Assembly: GCA_903844645.1 (NCBI GenBank)
Contig: CAIMUP010000007.1
Span: 1-43,778, forward strand
Direction: 5' to 3'
Source: an uncultured Bacteroidota bacterium
GTDB lineage: Bacteria; Bacteroidota; Bacteroidia; AKYH767-A; JABDAW01
Length of the DNA stretch: 43,778 nucleotides
The position numbers were made by a program, and so were the translations under genes. How positions within the stretch are numbered: position 1 is the first letter of the stretch; every line of letters begins with the position of its first letter. The notes under the pieces are model-generated. The model saw nothing but the letters and a program-made list of their open reading frames with translations. It ran no database searches and was not told the origin of the DNA. This document shows positions 1,676 to 43,472 of this stretch, piece after piece.

Positions 1676-4600
1676 ATGATAGCGAATAAGGTTTTGTGTA
1701 ATAAGAATTTGGGCTTTATAATTAGGGGTTTGATATTCCTCTTTCTGTTAATTTATTCTTCTGAATCTAATGCACAATGGGTCAGTAATATCCGTCAGAA
1801 GTATATCACAGTTAAGGCTGATACCGTGGCTTTCGATACCTTGAGCAGCATTCCGAATTCACTTTATTTAATAGCTAATGGAAAGAATATTGATACCTCT
1901 GCTTATATGATTTCTTATGAGGATGCTCGCTTGATTTGGAAGAAGAATTCGGAGGCTTATCGAGCGATTTCGGAGGATAGTGTGCGGCTTACTTATCGGA
2001 TGTTTCCCTACTTGCTGAACCAAACTTATCAGCATAAAGATGTGCATCGGATTCAGAAGGATATTTATGGAAACGTCAATCCTTTCGCCTATTCCAGCGA
2101 GACGGGGAAGGCTGATTTGTTCCAGTTTCAGGGCTTGAATAAGACGGGAAGTATTTCGCGGGGCGTGACTTTTGGTAACAATCAGGACTTGGTTGTGAAC
2201 TCGAATCTTAATCTTCAACTTGCCGGAAAACTGGGCGATAATGTGGAGATACTTGCCTCCATCACCGATCAGAATATCCCCATCCAGCCTGAAGGAAACA
2301 CGAAACAGATACAGGATTTCGATAAAGTTTTTATTCAAATCTCTCGCAACAAAGCGAAGTTGATTGCCGGCGACTTTGAATTGAAAAGACCCGATAGTTA
2401 CTTCATGAATTTCTATAAAAAGGCACAAGGCGGTATCTTTACCGATGAATTTTATCTGGAAGATACTACGAATAATAAACATGCCGGCATCATGAAAGTA
2501 GGCGCCAGTGCTGCCATTTCGAAGGGGATCTTTGCAAGGAATACGATACAGGGAATTGAAGGGAATCAAGGTCCTTATAAACTAAAAGGAAGCAACAACG
2601 AGTTATATATTATAGTACTTTCCGGCTCTGAAAAAGTCTTTATTGATGGGCAATTAATGCAGCGTGGACAGGACAATGATTATATCATAGATTACAACAC
2701 CGGAGAGGTTACCTTCATGCCGAAACGGTTGATAACAAAGGATTCTCGGTTGGTTATCGAGTATCAATATTCTAATAATTACTTTGCTCGATCCATGCTT
2801 TTTGCTAACACGGAATATGCAAAGGATAACTTCAAGATTCGTTTCAATGCATACTCTGAACAGGATAGTAAAAGTCAGCCGTTGTTGCAGAGTTTGGATT
2901 CGGCACAGCAACAATTTTTATCAGGTATTGGTAATGATGTGCAGCATGCCGTTTATCCCGCTGTTGCAGTCGTTACGTATGATTCTACAAAGATTTTATA
3001 TAAGAAAATTGATACGCTAATTGGCTCTGTTCTTTATTCAGGAATTTATGTTTATAGTACGCATCGTGACAGTGCGAAATATCAATTAGGCTTCTCCAAT
3101 GTAGGGAATGGTAATGGCAATTATGTTCCGATTAATAGCACCGCAAATGGAAATGTTTATACATGGATTGCGCCTGTAAATGGCGTGCCACAAGGGAATT
3201 ACGAGCCTGTTGAATTGTTGGTCACTCCAAAGAAACAACAGCTGTTTACATTGGGTGGTGACTATGCTTTCTCAAAGAATACCAAGATGAATTTCGAGGG
3301 AGCATTGAGTAATAATGATGTTAATTTATTTTCTAAAACTGGTAAGCAGAATGATGTTGGAGAGGCAATCAAAATTGGCTTTGAGAATGTGCAAAAACTG
3401 GATAAAGATTCTGCTGGCTGGAAACTTATTTCTGGTATCAAATATGAAGAAACTACTAAGGATTTCAAGCCCATAGAACGTTATCGTCCCACTGAATTTG
3501 AAAGGGATTGGAACATCCCATCAACCGATACTATTAAGGCAGATGATCATCTTGCAGGAGTTAGTTTGTCTTTGATTAATCCCAAGACCGGAAGTATTAA
3601 TTATGATTTTAAAACTTATCTGAAAGCCAGTGAATACAAAGATATGATGAATACTATTAGTACTAATCTTAACTGGAAAAGGTTCCGATTGTTATCGAAT
3701 GTCAGTCTACTGGATGCTTCGGGAACTGTTAATCCATCTACTTTTCTTCGGCAGAAAGTTGATCTTTCAAAATCGTTTAAATCTATTATGATTGGCGTCT
3801 CTGAAGATGAGGAAAACAATAAGTTCAAAGCTGCTGATAGTAATTTTTTGTCGAGTAACAGCTATCGTTATAATCAATGGATGGTTTATGTTACGAACCC
3901 TGATACTACTAAGAATAAATTCAGGATTGATTATGGTGAAAGGTATGATTATGGCACGTGGGGCTTGAGTTTCAAGCAATCAACCAAAGCAAGGAATGCA
4001 GACTTTTCTCTTGAATTATTAAAGAATCCAAACAATAGATTTAGCATCAGCACAACCTATCGAACATTGACGATAATTGATTCAACGTTATCATTTCAAA
4101 AGCCTACTGAATCTTTGTTGAATCGAATGGAATATAGTTTCAACATACTTAATCGATTGATGACTTCTACAACGTTTTATGAAATAGGAACGGGGCAGGA
4201 ACAGAAGCAGCAGTATGTCTATGTGCAGGTGCAGCCGGGCAAAGGCGTGTATCAATACCTTGGCGATTTGAATGGAAATGGTGTGCAGGATCTCAATGAA
4301 TTTGCGGTTGCTCAGTTCCCCGATCAGGCAACATTTATAAGGGTTTATACTCCCACCAATGTTTATGTGAAAGATTATACCAATCGTTTTAACGAGAGCA
4401 TATTCCTCAATCCTGCTGCGGCTTTCGGGAATAAAACTACCGGCATCAAGAAGTTCATCGGTCGTTTCTCTGACAATGCAACTTACTCTACTGATCGCAA
4501 AACGACTAATAATAATCTTAAATCCTTGTTCAATCCTTTTGAAAATATCATCACGGATTCTTCTTTGATTTCTACCAATGTTTCGGCGCGTAACAGCATT

Positions 4601-34777: not shown

Positions 34778-35089
34778 CTACTTTTGCTGCCTGAAAAAAA
34801 TACTGTCTTTGATGATGATAAAAACACTTGATAGATTGAATGGAGAAAGATTAAAAAATCCTTTTGAGAAGGCAATGGATTGCAAATCCGTCGAAGCGAT
34901 ACGTTGCATATCCAGCGGCTCTGGGTATATGGAAATGTACCTATCAACAGGTTTAACCCATGACCCAAAAATGAATAATGGAAGAACATTTTCAGAACTT
35001 TTTAAAGCTTCATAAAATCCATGATTATCGTTAATCCTTAAATCCCTGCGAAACCAGAAAATGGTTATTGCCTTATCAATTTCTTTCAT
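34778..35089 (-). pseudogene. Truncated cryptochrome/DNA photolyase
   Basis: The first 41 residues are an unmistakable photolyase N-terminus (ITIFWFRRDLRINDNHG, then LPLFIF). After about 34967 the frame stays open for 62 codons but reads unrelated sequence (WVKPVDRYISIYPEPLD), and the FAD-binding domain of about 400 residues is absent. The ATG overlaps the cyclase stop as TAATG, so the gene was translationally coupled as the last gene of the carotenoid operon. The sequence at the break contains a palindrome-like ggattgcaaatcc near 34880, which may mark a repetitive element that caused the deletion. It cannot repair DNA; an intact copy may exist elsewhere. Confidence 0.8.
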
Positions 35090-35781
35090 TATTTGGCAAC
35101 AAATATTCTTTTAAAATATTCATAAAGAAAAACATTCAAAAGAATCAATTCAAATCCATAGAAAATATCTTCAAAAGGTATAGTGAGTAATCTAACCCCT
35201 ATATTTTCACTGTTATTATACCACACTACAGGATGTTCAATCCCACTACCAGTAAGGATTCCATTAACAATAAAGAATGGGATAAGTAATATTGGATAGA
35301 TGCTAAACAGCTTACCAAGCCAATCAACTTTTAGAATAAATTTAAGAATGAAAAGAACAAAAGCCAAACTGAAGAAAGTGGATGCTGTATAATATCTATC
35401 ATGAAATAGAATACCGATTATAAATAATAGAATGCAAAGTGTAGCAACAAATATATTCTCTGACTTGATCTTCCAATTAAAAGAAAAAAAGATATTCAAA
35501 CAATGAAAAGTAAAGACGCAGGAGAAGGGAATACAAATGAAAAATAATACCTCCTCAAGAGGCAGGTTGATGATGTTTATTCCTAAAATATAATCCTTGT
35601 TGAAGCCCCAAACACCAAGTTTTACAAAGATGCTGTCCCATATAAGAAAGACGATGGCAATGATCATATTGGAAATAAAGAAGGCCTTCCAATGCTTATA
35701 AAACCTTAGTTTGGGATGAAAAGAAAATAGGAGAGGAACAAAAATGGTAAAGAAATCAATAAGAAGATAAAGCCATTTCAT
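35089..35781 (-). CDS. Lycopene cyclase, CrtYcd type (membrane)
   Basis: 230 residues from the ATG at 35781, two bases after the crtZ stop; longer starts would overlap crtZ by 60 bases. Seven hydrophobic helices are visible. The two halves each carry the family's motif: NLPLEEVLFFICIP in the first (CrtYc-like) and TIPFEDIFYGF in the second (CrtYd-like), so this is the fused form of the heterodimeric cyclase. It closes both ends of lycopene to give beta-carotene in the inner membrane. Its stop overlaps the start of the photolyase remnant. The assignment is firm from motifs plus the gene neighbourhood. Confidence 0.87.
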   Translation of the reverse strand: MKWLYLLIDFFTIFVPLLFSFHPKLRFYKHWKAFFISNMIIAIVFLIWDSIFVKLGVWGFNKDYILGINIINLPLEEVLFFICIPFSCVFTFHCLNIFFSFNWKIKSENIFVATLCILLFIIGILFHDRYYTASTFFSLAFVLFILKFILKVDWLGKLFSIYPILLIPFFIVNGILTGSGIEHPVVWYNNSENIGVRLLTIPFEDIFYGFELILLNVFLYEYFKRIFVAK

Positions 35782-35783
35782 AG

Positions 35784-36251
35784 TTACAGAATGCTCTTGT
35801 CCTTCTTGAAATACTTCATAGGTACCCATAGCATTCCAAAGCATTCACCATTTTCCTTTCCTGTATGTTTATGATGCATCTTATGAGCCCTCCTGATGGC
35901 TTTGAAATAAGTACCATCAGCATTCCGAAATATCTTGAATCGCTGATGAATAAAAATATCATGAACAAAAAAGTAAGCAAATCCATAGATGGTAATTCCT
36001 AATCCTATCCAGAATAAAACGTTGTAATCGGCTTGCATGCCAAATAATAAACCAAGTATTCCTGGAATAGCGAATATCAGGAAGAAGTAATCATTCTTTT
36101 CAAAGAAACCGTAAGTATCTTTCTTATGATGATCTCTATGCAAACTCCATAGAAATCCATGCATTACAAATTTATGTGTTAGCCATGCAACCGCTTCCAT
36201 ACTGAAGAATGCAAGTGCAACAATCAAACAATTAATTAAGATTCTTTCCAT
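35784..36251 (-). CDS. crtZ: Beta-carotene hydroxylase
   Basis: 155 residues, a fatty-acid-hydroxylase-type membrane di-iron enzyme. His motifs: HKFVMH at 26-31, HRDHH at 38-42, HDIFIH near 96 and HKMHHKH near 122. The iron ligands of the CrtZ family appear complete. It adds hydroxyl groups to the rings of beta-carotene to give zeaxanthin. It overlaps the SRPBCC gene by 20 bp upstream and is two bases from the cyclase, which indicates one operon. Confidence 0.92.
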   Translation of the reverse strand: MERILINCLIVALAFFSMEAVAWLTHKFVMHGFLWSLHRDHHKKDTYGFFEKNDYFFLIFAIPGILGLLFGMQADYNVLFWIGLGITIYGFAYFFVHDIFIHQRFKIFRNADGTYFKAIRRAHKMHHKHTGKENGECFGMLWVPMKYFKKDKSIL

Positions 36252-36705
36252 TATTTATGAATATTTTTTCCAATACTTGTTTTCTGTAAACGAAGATATT
36301 CTCGATTTTGTTTTTTACTATTAAAGTATGAGCGATATTTCCAATAAACCAAAAGGGCAATTGATAATTTACCACATCATGCATCATCACACCTCCATTC
36401 ATTTCGGTAAATGTATGGGTATGTTCCCAAACTTTATAGGGGCCTTTCAGTTGCCTGTCGGTAAAAGAACATTTATCCTTTACATCATATATTTCTGTTT
36501 GCCAATGCATAGGTATTCCAAATATTGGCCTAACTATATAATCTATTTTCATTCCATTAAATATCTCCTTATCATTTATATCAGACAATACTTTAAAATC
36601 CATTTCGGGAGGAGTAATGATTGATAAATTATTAGGATTAGAAAAAAAATTCCATGCCTCATTCAATCCAATCGGAAGAAATTGTTCGGCTCTAATTTGA
36701 AACAT
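36232..36705 (-). CDS. SRPBCC-family (START-like) protein of the carotenoid operon
   Basis: 157 residues from the ATG at 36705, 14 bases inside the end of idi; a longer start at 36747 would overlap idi by 56 bases. The pattern is that of the SRPBCC ligand-binding fold: FLPIGLNEAWNFFSNPNNLSIITPPEM at the start, GIPMHWQTEI in the middle and a C-terminal helix. Members of the fold bind hydrophobic ligands. A role in handling carotenoid intermediates is inferred from position only. Confidence 0.8.
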   Translation of the reverse strand: MFQIRAEQFLPIGLNEAWNFFSNPNNLSIITPPEMDFKVLSDINDKEIFNGMKIDYIVRPIFGIPMHWQTEIYDVKDKCSFTDRQLKGPYKVWEHTHTFTEMNGGVMMHDVVNYQLPFWFIGNIAHTLIVKNKIENIFVYRKQVLEKIFINNGKNLN

Positions 36706-37252
36706 AATCATTATTAATTTTGCTTTTTGGGAGAAACATAGTTGCATACTTTTCCTTTACTTTAGGGAAACATAATTTCAACCACTCTGTATATCTTTTA
36801 GGATGCAATGCTAAATCCATCTCCAGATTTTTAAGGCTGATATAATTCCAATTTTGCACTTCATCTTTATTTGGTAATGGAATTTCATTTGTTATTCCAA
36901 AATATACATGATCATATTCATGCTCTGTTAAACCATTCTCAAATTTAACTTTGTAAAGAAAACTAAAGGCAAATTGCACATCACAAGTCATGCCCATTTC
37001 CTCTTCTAATCTTCTATTTACAGCATCATTGGTTTCTTCTCCAAACTGCGGATGACTACAACAAGTATTTGTCCATAATCCTGCGGAATGATACTTGCCA
37101 TCAGCACGTTGCTGCAAAAGCAATTGACCTTTTGTGTTAAAGATAAACACTGAAAACGCCCTATGAAGCAAACCTAATTGGTGAACCAAAAGCTTTTCCA
37201 GTTTACCCCATTGCTTATCATTTTCATCTACTAAAATTAAATAATCATTCAT
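36692..37252 (-). CDS. idi: Isopentenyl-diphosphate delta-isomerase, type 1
   Basis: 186 residues with a Nudix-like fold. The catalytic motif TNTCCSHP is near residue 62, a Nudix-like helix RRLEEEMGM is near 85, and EHEYDHVYFG supplies the catalytic Glu and metal ligands near 110. It interconverts isopentenyl-PP and dimethylallyl-PP, setting the precursor ratio for carotenoid synthesis. It overlaps its upstream neighbour by ATGA, a sign of translational coupling. Confidence 0.93.
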   Translation of the reverse strand: MNDYLILVDENDKQWGKLEKLLVHQLGLLHRAFSVFIFNTKGQLLLQQRADGKYHSAGLWTNTCCSHPQFGEETNDAVNRRLEEEMGMTCDVQFAFSFLYKVKFENGLTEHEYDHVYFGITNEIPLPNKDEVQNWNYISLKNLEMDLALHPKRYTEWLKLCFPKVKEKYATMFLPKSKINNDYVSN

Positions 37253-37752
37253 GCTTTTATATTTTGTTTTTCAATTTCTGTTAAATAATCTGATTTCAAC
37301 AAATAGGGAATCATAAACTGTTTTAATTCCTTATCTTCTAGTTTATCGATAGTCATTACGATAAAATTCTTATCATCTTCTATAGAGCTTTTATAAAATA
37401 AAAAAAATGGTGCATTTGCCTGTGCTGCAAATCTAAGAAATCTTAATTCTATGTTCTGTTTGTCAGCGTCAACTGCTTTTTCTAGTAACGACTTCCCTTC
37501 TAAAAACTTCTCATATTTAGTGTAAGGATTAAAAACATAATTTGCCATCATCATTATTGCGCATGCCTTGTACCCTGCCAGTAATGCATCATTCTTTTCA
37601 TTATAATTTTGTAAAATCGACAAGATGCCTTTGCAGGCTAATTCTTCTGTAGCAGCCTTTTGGAATAGATTTCTAATATCCTGTTTTAAAGGTACATTGG
37701 AAAAACTATTTATTGTAATAAGGAATAAAATCAACGTAACAAAATTTCTCAT
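37249..37752 (-). CDS. Small exported helical protein of the carotenoid operon
   Basis: 167 residues, function unknown. The N-terminus MRNFVTLILFLITINSFS is a signal peptide, so it should be periplasmic. The rest is helical with a TPR-like rhythm (GKSLLEKAVDADKQNIELRFLRFAAQ). It overlaps crtB by 4 bp and idi by 4 bp, so it is locked into the operon, which makes an accessory role in pigment production plausible. No catalytic motif was recognised. Confidence 0.75.
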   Translation of the reverse strand: MRNFVTLILFLITINSFSNVPLKQDIRNLFQKAATEELACKGILSILQNYNEKNDALLAGYKACAIMMMANYVFNPYTKYEKFLEGKSLLEKAVDADKQNIELRFLRFAAQANAPFFLFYKSSIEDDKNFIVMTIDKLEDKELKQFMIPYLLKSDYLTEIEKQNIKA

Positions 37753-38585
37753 AACAGATTAAACTTATATTGAAACATACTATTTACCATCAAGCCAAAT
37801 TTCTTCCCATTACTAATTCTGATTCTTTCAATTAATACTCTTTCAGCAGGAACACGTTTGATTTTCTTAAATAGGGAATTGTAATAAACATAGGCCAAGT
37901 AAACACCTCCTTTTGATGAAGATGGAAGCATTTTAATCCCTATTAACGCCTCTTTGAAATCATCCTCTATTTCTTTTTCAATCGCAGCTTTTGTTGAAGA
38001 AGAAAATTTGGTCATATCAACATTTGGAAAGTAGGTCCTACCTAATTGTTGGTAATCTGCCTTTAGGTCCCTTAAGAAATTTATCTTCTGAAAAGCCGCC
38101 CCCAACTTCATGGCATAAGGTTTTAGTTCTTCAAAGTTTTTTTTATTTCCCTCAGTAAAAACATGAAGGCACATCAAACCAACAACTTCAGCAGAACCTA
38201 AAATATATTGGTTATATTTATCGGAAGTATAATCAATTTTCTCAAGATCCATCTCCATGCTTTGCAGAAAGGTATCGATTAAATCATAGCTGATATTAAA
38301 TTCATGAACTACTTTCTGAAAAGCATTTAATATTGGGTTTAATGAAATACCTGATTCGAGTGCTTCATAGGTATCATTTTTAAATTTTTCCAAAAGATAT
38401 TTCCTGTCATATCCTTCAAAGCTATCCACTATTTCATCAGCAAAACGAACGAATCCATAGATGGAATAGATCGGATTTCTCAAGCTATTCTTAAGGAAGT
38501 ATATTCCTAATGAAAAACTTGTGCTGTACTCTTTGGTGGTGAGTTTGCTGCACTTCACCGACACATCATCAAATAACAACTTCAT
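37749..38585 (-). CDS. crtB: Phytoene synthase
   Basis: 278 residues, squalene/phytoene-synthase fold. The first Asp-rich motif is D50-E-I-V-D54 in FVRFADEIVDSF and the second is D173-L-K-A-D177 in INFLRDLKADYQQLGRTYFP; both bind the Mg-diphosphate. It condenses two GGPP into phytoene, the first committed step. GGPP synthase is not in the window. It overlaps crtI by 17 bp. Confidence 0.94.
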   Translation of the reverse strand: MKLLFDDVSVKCSKLTTKEYSTSFSLGIYFLKNSLRNPIYSIYGFVRFADEIVDSFEGYDRKYLLEKFKNDTYEALESGISLNPILNAFQKVVHEFNISYDLIDTFLQSMEMDLEKIDYTSDKYNQYILGSAEVVGLMCLHVFTEGNKKNFEELKPYAMKLGAAFQKINFLRDLKADYQQLGRTYFPNVDMTKFSSSTKAAIEKEIEDDFKEALIGIKMLPSSSKGGVYLAYVYYNSLFKKIKRVPAERVLIERIRISNGKKFGLMVNSMFQYKFNLL

Positions 38586-40065
38586 GATTATTTTTATTTA
38601 TTATTTTTATTAATTCATTTGCGACTACTTTACCAGATATTATTGAAGGTGGAACACCCGGTCCTGGAACAGTAAGCTGGCCAGCATAAAAGAGATTACT
38701 TACTTTCTTGTTTCTGATTTTTGGTTTTAATATGGCAGTTTGCATCAAGGTATTTGCCAAACCATAAGCATTACCTTTATAGGAATTATAATCTAAAATA
38801 AAATCATTGACGCAATAACTTTTCTTATAATCTATATGATCAATAATATTTTCGTCACATTGTTTTTCCAAACGTTCCATCATGATCTTGAAATAGGTTT
38901 CTCTTGTTTGCTCCGAGTCTTTTAAGCCAGGGGCAATAGGCATTAGCAGAAATAAGTTTTCATGTTCATCCGGTGCTACTCTTGAGTCTGTTTTTGAAGG
39001 GCAACATGTATAAAACAAAGGCTTGTTTGGCCATTGTGGATTCTTATATATTTCTAAAGAATGATTATACAAATCTTCATCAAAGAATAAGGTATGATGA
39101 TTCAGCGACTTAATTTTCTTTTTAATTCCTAAGAAATATATCAGACAAGAAGGCGCGAAGGTTTTATTATCCCAATAGCTTTCATCATAATTTCTATGTT
39201 CCTCTTGCAACAACTTGCTTTCTACATGATGGTAATCTGCTGATGCAATTATTGTATCAAACGAAAATATTTCACCATTGACAAGTATGCTTTTAGCTTG
39301 ATTGCCTTCAACAATTATCTTTTCAACATTGGCATTAAGATGAAAAGTTGTTCCTTTATTCTTGGCAACTTCTATCATTCCATCAATTACTTTTCCAAAG
39401 CCTCCCATCGGATACCAAGTCCCTAATTTCAGTCCTGCATAGTTCATTAGACTATAGAGTGCGGGCGTGTCTTGAGGCATTGCACCAAGAAACAAAACAG
39501 GGAATTCCATCAATGCAATTAATTTAGGATTAGTAAAGAACTTCCTGACATGCTTACTGAAAGAAGAGAAAACCTGTAATCGAAACATTCCTTTTATCAA
39601 ATCCATATCAGCGAATTCAGAAAGTGAAAGCCCTGGTTTATAGACCAAGTTTTCGATGCCAGTTTTGTATTTATATTCTGCTTCTTTCAAAAAGGCATTC
39701 AATTTTTCTGAACTCCCTTTTTCTATGGATTCAAAGAGCTTGCCTAGTGCTTCGTAATTCTCTGGCACATGCATGGTGTCATTGTTTCCAAAAACTACAT
39801 CAAAGGAAGGATCCAACAGTTTCAATTCATAAAAATCAGAAACTTTATAACCAAAATCATTAAAGAACTTCTCGAAAACTCCAGGCATCCAATACCAACT
39901 AGGGCCCATGTCAAACAAATATCCATTATCAGTTTTGAAATTCCTGGCTCGGCCACCAGCTTGTGAATTCTTTTCAAAAACATGCACATCATGACCTGCG
40001 GCAGACAAATATGCTGCTGCACTTATCCCTGAAAAACCTGATCCTATGATGGCTATTTTTGACAT
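38569..40065 (-). CDS. crtI: Phytoene desaturase (CrtI-type FAD oxidoreductase)
   Basis: 498 residues. The N-terminal FAD-binding motif is G8-S-G-F-S-G13, followed by the acidic strand end VFEKN and GGRARNF. The C-terminal CrtI signature FYAGQLTVPGPGVPPSIISG ends with the FAD-binding helix. It introduces the conjugated double bonds that turn phytoene into lycopene. Its start lies 29 bp after the regulator stop, so it is probably the second gene of the operon. Confidence 0.94.
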   Translation of the reverse strand: MSKIAIIGSGFSGISAAAYLSAAGHDVHVFEKNSQAGGRARNFKTDNGYLFDMGPSWYWMPGVFEKFFNDFGYKVSDFYELKLLDPSFDVVFGNNDTMHVPENYEALGKLFESIEKGSSEKLNAFLKEAEYKYKTGIENLVYKPGLSLSEFADMDLIKGMFRLQVFSSFSKHVRKFFTNPKLIALMEFPVLFLGAMPQDTPALYSLMNYAGLKLGTWYPMGGFGKVIDGMIEVAKNKGTTFHLNANVEKIIVEGNQAKSILVNGEIFSFDTIIASADYHHVESKLLQEEHRNYDESYWDNKTFAPSCLIYFLGIKKKIKSLNHHTLFFDEDLYNHSLEIYKNPQWPNKPLFYTCCPSKTDSRVAPDEHENLFLLMPIAPGLKDSEQTRETYFKIMMERLEKQCDENIIDHIDYKKSYCVNDFILDYNSYKGNAYGLANTLMQTAILKPKIRNKKVSNLFYAGQLTVPGPGVPPSIISGKVVANELIKIINKNNHEVVI

Positions 40066-40094: not shown

Positions 40095-40973
40095 TTAAAC
40101 GAGGGAGGCTTCCAATTCTTCAACAGAGCGAATCCAACTATTGCTTTTACCCATCTTTAATTTCTTGATCAAATTTTCATTTCCTGATAGGTGAATCTTG
40201 ATATTCTTAAAGCCCTTATTCAAGGTATTCAAATACATTTGTGAATATTCCGGATTGTCATTATGCACCAGAAAGAATAAAAGATTGGTCGGTTCTATTT
40301 CTTCAACGGCTGTTACAATAGTTTCGCAAGGGACATTATTACCTAGGTAAACAACCTTTTTACCAGCCTGTCGAATAATATAAGAGGCAAACAGCAAACC
40401 TATCTCATGATATTCGTTTTCTGGAAGGAATAAAAGCCAAGTGTCGTTGGATGTTTTTGAAGGGGGTAAAGAATCAATGGCGGTAAATAATTTCTGCCTG
40501 ATAATATTACTGATGAAATGCTCTTGAGCCGGTGACATCGTGCCACTTGACCACATCAAGCCAATTCTATTCAGCATAGGATAAATAATCTTAATATAGC
40601 AATCCTTGACCCCCATTCGCAGTAGGCAATTAGAGAATATTTTCTCAAAATGAAGCTCATCAAAACTTACTCCAGATGCAATCAACTGAGAGATGAAATA
40701 TTCATTTCCTCCAACCGAAACAATACTTTTTTCGAGTTGTTCTTCCAATATCATAAACAGTTCCTTATCCGTCATGACACATAATTGGGATACCTTATAT
40801 CTAACACCCATAAGACATACGATATTCAGCAATCGCCTAAGCTGTGAGTTATCATAATATCTTGTATTCCCCTCCGAACGCATTGGTGTAAGGGCATTGT
40901 ATCGCTGTTCCCATACACGGATGGTATGGGCTTTGATACCTGAAAACTGCTGCAATTGTGATATTGTGAACAT
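40095..40973 (-). CDS. CarH-like MerR-family B12-dependent light-responsive regulator
   Basis: 292 residues from the ATG at 40973. An in-frame TTG at 40997 falls inside the -7 box and is rejected. Residues 1-70 are a MerR helix-turn-helix (TISQLQQFSGIKAHTIRVWEQRY). Residues about 85-165 are the four-helix cap with W141 and E151-H152, the Wx9EH motif of CarH that covers adenosylcobalamin. Residues about 175-285 are a B12-binding Rossmann domain with E187-Y-H189-E-I-G192, the ExHxxG motif carrying the lower-ligand His. In the characterised CarH proteins, light breaks the B12 Co-C bond, the tetramer falls apart and repression ends. All the motifs are intact here, so a working photoreceptor is likely. 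It heads the carotenoid operon. Confidence 0.9.
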   Translation of the reverse strand: MFTISQLQQFSGIKAHTIRVWEQRYNALTPMRSEGNTRYYDNSQLRRLLNIVCLMGVRYKVSQLCVMTDKELFMILEEQLEKSIVSVGGNEYFISQLIASGVSFDELHFEKIFSNCLLRMGVKDCYIKIIYPMLNRIGLMWSSGTMSPAQEHFISNIIRQKLFTAIDSLPPSKTSNDTWLLFLPENEYHEIGLLFASYIIRQAGKKVVYLGNNVPCETIVTAVEEIEPTNLLFFLVHNDNPEYSQMYLNTLNKGFKNIKIHLSGNENLIKKLKMGKSNSWIRSVEELEASLV

Positions 40974-40980
40974 ATATTTT

Positions 40981-41010
40981 TGTTTAAGACGGTGCAAATT
41001 TACTTAAACA
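40981..41010. promoter_or_regulatory. Operator-like dyad 1 over the -7 box
   Basis: TGTTTAAG (40981-40988), 14 bases, CTTAAACA (41003-41010): a perfect 8-bp inverted repeat enclosing the -7 box of the regulator promoter. A bound repressor here would block transcription. Confidence 0.65.
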
Positions 41011-41026
41011 ATACGACATGACCAAA
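40995..41026 (-). promoter_or_regulatory. Promoter of the carH-crt operon
   Basis: On the - strand TTTG (41026-41023), a 20-bp spacer and TAAATTTG (41002-40995): a full Bacteroidota promoter. Transcription would start near 40989, giving a leader of about 15 bases. Confidence 0.8.
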
Positions 41027-41042
41027 TACATTATACTTATTT

Positions 41043-41072
41043 TGTTTAAATATCTTATTTTTAACTTAAACA
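41043..41072. promoter_or_regulatory. Operator-like dyad 2 upstream of the -33 box
   Basis: TGTTTAAA (41043-41050), 14 bases, CTTAAACA (41065-41072). It has the same arms (one base differs) and the same 22-bp arm offset as dyad 1, displaced by 62 bp, close to six helical turns. It lies between the divergent LytTR gene and the carH promoter. Confidence 0.6.
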
Positions 41073-43209: not shown

Positions 43210-43472
43210 ATTGAAACAACCAATTGTAATGCTGTAGAGACGAACAATAGGGCTGTTGGAACGGACTGTAGTGCAAAACTAACGGACTGTAAGGCTGTAC
43301 ACACGGACTGTAAGACAGTAGAGACGGAGAGTAAGGCTGTACACGCCTATTGTATGGCTGTAGAGACGAAGAGTAAGGCAGTACAAACGTATTGTAAGGC
43401 TGTACAGACGTATTGCATGGCTGAACAGACGTAAAGCAAGGATGTACAGACGATCTGCATGGCTTTTGGTCT
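43210..43472 (+). repeat. 21-bp tandem array 6 (about 12 units)
   Basis: Units start at 43231, 43252, 43273, 43294, 43315 and onward to 43441 at exact 21-bp steps, with a weaker one at 43210. The open frame reads heptads such as AVHTDCK and AVQTYCM. An in-frame TAA at 43432-43434 ends the ORF, but the 21-bp phase continues for the rest of that unit and one full further unit. The array ends with cttttggtct (43463-43472), the same ten bases that end array 1 (226-235). Confidence 0.9.

Follow-up and report, generated by a model that had tools for sequence, protein, structure and literature searches.

CarH proteins are known for binding direct repeats, unlike other MerR proteins, which bind palindromes, and in classical MerR activators the palindrome occupies the spacer that separates the two promoter boxes. 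The CarH or class I LitR proteins are defined by two motifs, Wx9EH and ExHxxG (PMC8156234), and the published core of the CarH half-site is TnnACA (PMC9304148, PMC8156234). Thermus thermophilus CarH, a class I LitR with MerR, four-helix and Rossmann B12 domains, uses an operator of three tandem 11-bp direct repeats (PMC8156234). Its His132 serves as the upper ligand after light, and loss of this residue leaves most of the protein tetrameric (PMC10442372). The His132 position varies among other light-responsive proteins (PMC11796333), and bis-His ligation is a Thermus feature that does not define CarH or class I LitR. The CarH proteins of Bacillus megaterium and myxobacteria are repressors of crt operons of the AdoCbl type; their operators, over -35 or -10, usually comprise three to five 11-bp units in the form of direct repeats or pseudo-repeats (PMC9304148). 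Inverted repeats were once proposed at a Myxococcus promoter and have since been re-read as direct repeats (PMC9304148). For Bacteroidota, no CarH operator was found in the open-licence literature on CarH/LitR in the phylum, and one Chryseobacterium with a light-induced pigment has been reported without car or lit genes, its regulator being not known (PMC7064467).

The window, i.e. the whole 43,778-nucleotide stretch analysed here, encodes a regulator that resembles Thermus CarH, its best PDB fold match, in its three domains, in having equivalents of W131, E141, H142 and H177, in the TnnACA core at its promoter and in its linkage to carotenoid genes. It differs from Thermus CarH in that the half-sites are inverted and ~21 bp apart, sometimes doubled, and in that Ser replaces His132; the identity in the fold alignment is ~21%. 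It is probable that the two dyads at this promoter are the operator of the adjacent CarH-type regulator, which would repress its own crt operon in the dark and release it in the light. As far as the sequences go, the inverted arrangement is new relative to the published CarH operators examined, all of which are tandem 11-bp direct repeats.

The regulator and its carotenoid operon

The operon lies on the minus strand with its genes tightly spaced or overlapping and the regulator first.

40095..40973, minus strand: CarH-type MerR regulator (carH), 292 aa, MerR HTH and B12-binding domains (Pfam/NCBIfam; PDB sequence and fold matches, Thermus CarH)
38569..40065, minus strand: crtI, phytoene desaturase/3,4-desaturase CrtID (NF058655, 718.9 bits, above cut-off)
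37749..38585, minus strand: crtB, phytoene synthase (PF00494)
37249..37752, minus strand: conserved operon ORF without Pfam/NCBIfam match; homologues in several relatives' crt operons
36692..37252, minus strand: idi, isopentenyl-diphosphate delta-isomerase (TIGR02150, NF002995, above cut-off)
36232..36747, minus strand: conserved operon ORF without Pfam match; homologues in relatives' crt operons
35784..36251, minus strand: crtZ-like carotenoid/fatty-acid hydroxylase (PF04116)
35089..35844, minus strand: lycopene cyclase (PF18916, TIGR03462)
34778..35089, minus strand: photolyase/cryptochrome N-terminal fragment at the operon end (PF00875; tblastn with an intact homologue)

The preliminary description had placed a CarH-type regulator at the head of a carotenoid operon, and the annotation supports this, with carH preceding crtI-crtB-idi-crtZ-crtY. 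The regulator most likely starts at the ATG at 40973 and not at the mechanically listed TTG. The photolyase gene is broken; ~41 N-terminal residues align to the intact homologue, and the window does not contain the rest.

The N-terminal MerR-type DNA-binding domain of the regulator was detected by PF13411 (E 2.5e-13) and PF00376, and the four-helix B12 domain by PF02607 (E 1.8e-9, above its cut-off). The Rossmann B12 domain scored 22.2 bits with PF02310, below that model's own cut-off of 32.1, and the predicted structure matches TtCarH over both domains. This structure (pLDDT 89) had Thermus CarH (5c8d/5c8e) as its best Foldseek match, and the best fold match by Z was the light-sensitive CtMerR of Chloracidobacterium thermophilum (8jbt, Z 18.9), of which the matched entries comprise the B12 domain alone. 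The best-scoring NCBIfam model was NF052513 (TransRegCarH; 80.5 bits, E 1.2e-22); the score is below the 400-bit equivalog cut-off, a narrow orthology threshold and not the literature definition of CarH, and we therefore call the regulator CarH-type and not the named equivalog. Both signature motifs were seen intact in the sequence, as had been claimed beforehand: Wx9EH (W141, E151 and H152; WSSGTMSPAQEH) and ExHxxG (E187, H189 and G192; EYHEIG). Assignment to class II LitR, in which the four-helix domain alone is kept and the Rossmann B12 domain is lost (PMC9758184), was ruled out by the presence of the Rossmann domain and the axial His. A plasmid search with the regulator as query returned only distant matches.

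An alternative is that the regulator binds the dyads and represses the operon without itself using AdoCbl or light, with another signal as the trigger. The conservation of the ligand-binding residues was compared among 111 Bacteroidota homologue sequences (a few contigs counted twice). Such a CarA-like mode has a precedent in Myxococcus xanthus CarA, a CarH paralogue that is a dimer, represses a crt promoter, lacks Wx9EH and acts independently of B12 on an operator of this kind (PMC8156234). It would also suit the Ser142 that follows the motif Trp of the window protein, a position at which none of the 111 sequences has the equivalent of His132. In contrast to CarA, the window protein keeps Wx9EH. 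The equivalents of W131, E141, H142 and H177, the last being the axial His of ExHxxG, are intact in it and occur in 111, 109, 109 and 108 of the homologues, i.e. each in at least 108 of 111. The fold moreover matches that of CtMerR, which binds AdoCbl and responds to light with Arg in place of His132 (PMC11796333), and a cobalamin adenosyltransferase, an AdoCbl-making enzyme, is encoded in the window's genome. We thus regard a regulator that works without AdoCbl and light as unlikely. Conservation of the motifs makes AdoCbl binding likely, as judged from sequence, and together with the fold, the motifs suggest that dark repression and relief by light may accompany it. The absence of His132, which Thermus CarH needs for its normal disassembly in light (PMC10442372), counts against this reading. 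Some close relatives show an altered Wx9EH, with D for E141 in L037 and L008 and Y for H142 in L040/L009, so that proteins close to this one may no longer depend on B12, like CarA.

Two inverted dyads at the carH promoter

The promoter region contains the following features.

40981..41010, no strand assigned: proximal operator dyad, candidate, TGTTTAAG-N14-CTTAAACA, perfect 8-bp arms; exact match; kept in the C110 copy and in relatives
41043..41072, no strand assigned: distal operator dyad, candidate, TGTTTAAA-N14-CTTAAACA, arms 7/8; exact match; kept in C110
40995..41002, minus strand: -7 box TAAATTTG, the sole perfect TAnnTTTG in the stretch on either strand; inside the proximal dyad
41023..41025, minus strand: -33 box TTG, 20 bp upstream of the -7 box; kept in C110

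Two equal dyads with a 22-bp arm offset and 62 bp apart had been reported, and both were found exactly; they share the pattern TGTTTAAR-N14-CTTAAACA, and the count expected from shuffles of the window is 0.00. The pattern written as TGTTTAA-N14-NTTAAACA gave no match because it is one base short. When read as a 6-bp core, the dyad is TGTTTA-N18-TAAACA with a core start offset of 24. Perfect 8/14/8 palindromes are not rare in themselves, the window having 6 against ~0.9 expected, and we therefore place weight on repetition and conservation and not on one dyad. The window's own genome contains five exact TGTTTA-N18-TAAACA sites, four of them at the two crt promoters of the window and of contig C110; the fifth, on contig C39, is without the extended arm match and was judged to be a chance occurrence. 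A wider regulon did not emerge in this genome, where one-mismatch matches were barely above the control (30 vs 23).

Direct repeats hidden in the dyads were considered and rejected, as no 11-bp tandem series was found. Matches to the full nAnnTnnACAn were confined to three of the four arms, one overlap shifted by 6 bp and one site at the start codon, and the TnnACA cores at the dyads are inverted, ~21 bp apart, and do not form tandem 11-bp direct repeats.

The -7 consensus of Bacteroidota is TAnnTTTG. The coordinates bear out the claim that one dyad covers the -7 box and the other is upstream of the -33 box; the distal dyad starts 17 bp further upstream of the -33 TTG, and the centre of the proximal dyad falls at the 3' edge of the -7 box, outside the -33/-7 spacer. 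Placement of the proximal dyad over the -7 box of the regulator's own operon also fits the autoregulation that had been proposed. The MerR-type DNA-binding domain raises the alternative that the regulator activates transcription by twisting the promoter spacer, like classical MerR proteins. This is very improbable, because the proximal dyad is not in the spacer and because the -7 box takes differing positions within the dyad between clades: it occupies dyad positions 9-16 in many carH promoters and 15-22 in Algoriphagus ECF promoters (read off the sequences). The regulator was not placed in the classical MerR activator class, as one dyad is over the -7 box and the other upstream of the -33 box. 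The difference in box position further indicates that the dyad does not simply result from the promoter sequence.

The same assembly contains the region a second time, on contig C110 (L005, 3018 bp); this copy could be paralogous, or the contig could come from a related strain and have been binned here. It carries a regulator 79% identical to that of the window, the first part of crtI and the two dyads, again at a distance of 62 bp. Its DNA is 84% identical to the window, and BLAST homology stops where the distal dyad has its outer edge (41072); the flank that follows is unrelated and has no LytTR gene. Between the two copies, the arm bases are identical at 32/32 positions and the remaining bases at 42/60 (Fisher 2e-4). 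It had been suggested that the distal dyad also controls the divergent LytTR gene. This suggestion was not upheld; neither C110 nor any of the 80 relatives' loci contains the LytTR gene, its start lies ~155 bp away from the dyad, and a -33/-7 pair that could serve it did not turn up next to the dyad.

Conservation of the dyad across Bacteroidota

In the loci of 80 relatives, the inverted TGTTTA/TAAACA pair occurred near the regulator 67 times at an offset of 24 bp, three times at 25 bp, and once in all at the other offsets from 16 to 33 bp, against a shuffled mean of 0.02. The 72 exact dyads in these loci preceded an ECF sigma gene (37, ECF by Pfam), carH (25), crtI (6) or another gene (4). 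Conservation in the crt promoters of relatives had been set beforehand as the test on which the reading could fail, and the dyads proved to be conserved, including before carH and crtI. In a regulator tree (FastTree), the window's branch has the dyad mostly on carH and the other branch mostly on the ECF gene. Since the same site recurs before these sensors or the sigma factor that accompanies them, it is very probably the binding site of CarH-type regulators across Bacteroidota, as judged by this recurrence. Two loci, L043 and L044, carry TGTCTA...TAGACA, in which both arms are altered together at a free position of TnnACA; an identical change in both arms is expected if identical domains read both.

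The dyad also follows the regulator across genomes. Among 247 genomes of the class, it was present in exact form in 119/152 with the regulator and 8/95 without it (Fisher 3e-29), with totals of 231 and 8 dyads, respectively, against 27 in all for a reversed-pattern control; 33 of the 152 regulator genomes are without an exact dyad. In a set of 61 genomes, made up of the window's own plus 60 relatives, the exact dyad was present in 37/43 with the regulator and 4/18 without it (Fisher 3e-6). These genomes and loci share ancestry, and the p-values of co-occurrence therefore overstate independence.

As a further alternative, the dyads could be bound by another factor of the same regulon that reads palindromes, e.g. 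the LytTR protein or another MerR protein. The eight genomes with a dyad and no detected regulator would be accommodated by such a factor, as would the direct repeats, not palindromes, of known CarH operators (PMC8156234, PMC9304148). The absence of LytTR from C110 and from the relatives' loci, although the dyad is retained in most of these, the tracking of the dyad with the CarH-type regulator, and the CarH core TnnACA in the half-site, which the changes in L043 and L044 preserve, make a separate factor quite improbable. From conservation, co-occurrence and the compensatory arm changes, the dyads are most likely the operator of the regulator.

Dyads also occur in pairs in the window lineage, Algoriphagus, Pontibacter, Flammeovirgaceae, Cyclobacteriaceae, Crocinitomicaceae and others. 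The nearest paired dyads, among the pairs listed and partly read by eye, are 40-46 or 62-64 bp apart. The spacings of the listed pairs are thus near multiples of 21 bp and cluster in phase at 10.5 bp (p 5e-6 vs uniform spacing, uncorrected for kinship). Before carH, a single dyad and no distal one is present in the nearest relatives that share the operon (L036-L042, Pedobacter, Dyadobacter), which indicates that the second dyad is an addition and not a requirement. This weakens the proposed bridging of both dyads by one tetramer as the essential device, but the spacings of ~42 and 63 bp in other lineages do suggest cooperation on the same face.

In Algoriphagus, Pontibacter and Bacteroidales loci (e.g. 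L068, 10876-11605), the gene that the dyads precede encodes an ECF sigma factor and is often placed at the head of crtI-crtB, and on the ECF branch a dyad is usually missing from the regulator gene itself.

A model for light control of the operon

Each dyad would consist of two inverted TnnACA half-sites separated by ~21 bp (two helical turns), which would let two DNA-binding domains of an AdoCbl-bound oligomer read them from one face of the DNA. In the dark, occupation of the proximal dyad would cover the -7 box and block the single promoter of the carH-crtI-crtB-idi-crtZ-crtY operon, and the distal dyad, six turns upstream, would add affinity through cooperative binding on the same face. Light would cleave AdoCbl, the protein would release the DNA, and the pigment genes would be co-expressed with the regulator in a negative feedback loop. 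We infer binding, AdoCbl dependence, repression, light release and cooperativity from the features described above.

More tentatively, and with somewhat more doubt than confidence, the CarH proteins of Bacteroidota could be a mechanistically distinct class, with true inverted half-sites two turns apart, a 21-bp operator lattice (42 or 63 bp) that one tetramer can span, light release without the bis-His switch, and a shared operator that controls either the crt operon containing the regulator or an ECF sigma factor. If true, a phylum-wide palindromic operator, together with the lack of His132 in every homologue examined, would mean that the family solved both DNA recognition and light release in more than one way. 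The symmetric dyad would offer a simple operator for green-light switches, and TGTTTA-N18-TAAACA would be a readable motif that predicts light-controlled genes across Bacteroidota, including those for ECF sigma factors and GTP cyclohydrolase.

In some genomes, the dyad also precedes genes for GTP cyclohydrolase I, PTPS, SOUL and others. In L162 (G013 contig C1, about 76000-80500), a gene for an ECF sigma factor and one for GTP cyclohydrolase I diverge from a region with three dyads, which suggests that pterin synthesis belongs to the same light regulon.

Apart from the promoter, the window contains an array at 43282-43452, downstream of an ORF for which Pfam gave no match. Its unit is 21 bp long (consensus TGTAAGGCTGTACAGACGTAT) and is repeated ~8 times; units of 42 and 63 bp were scored as well. 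Another 21-bp array ends contig C110 (about 2870-3018).
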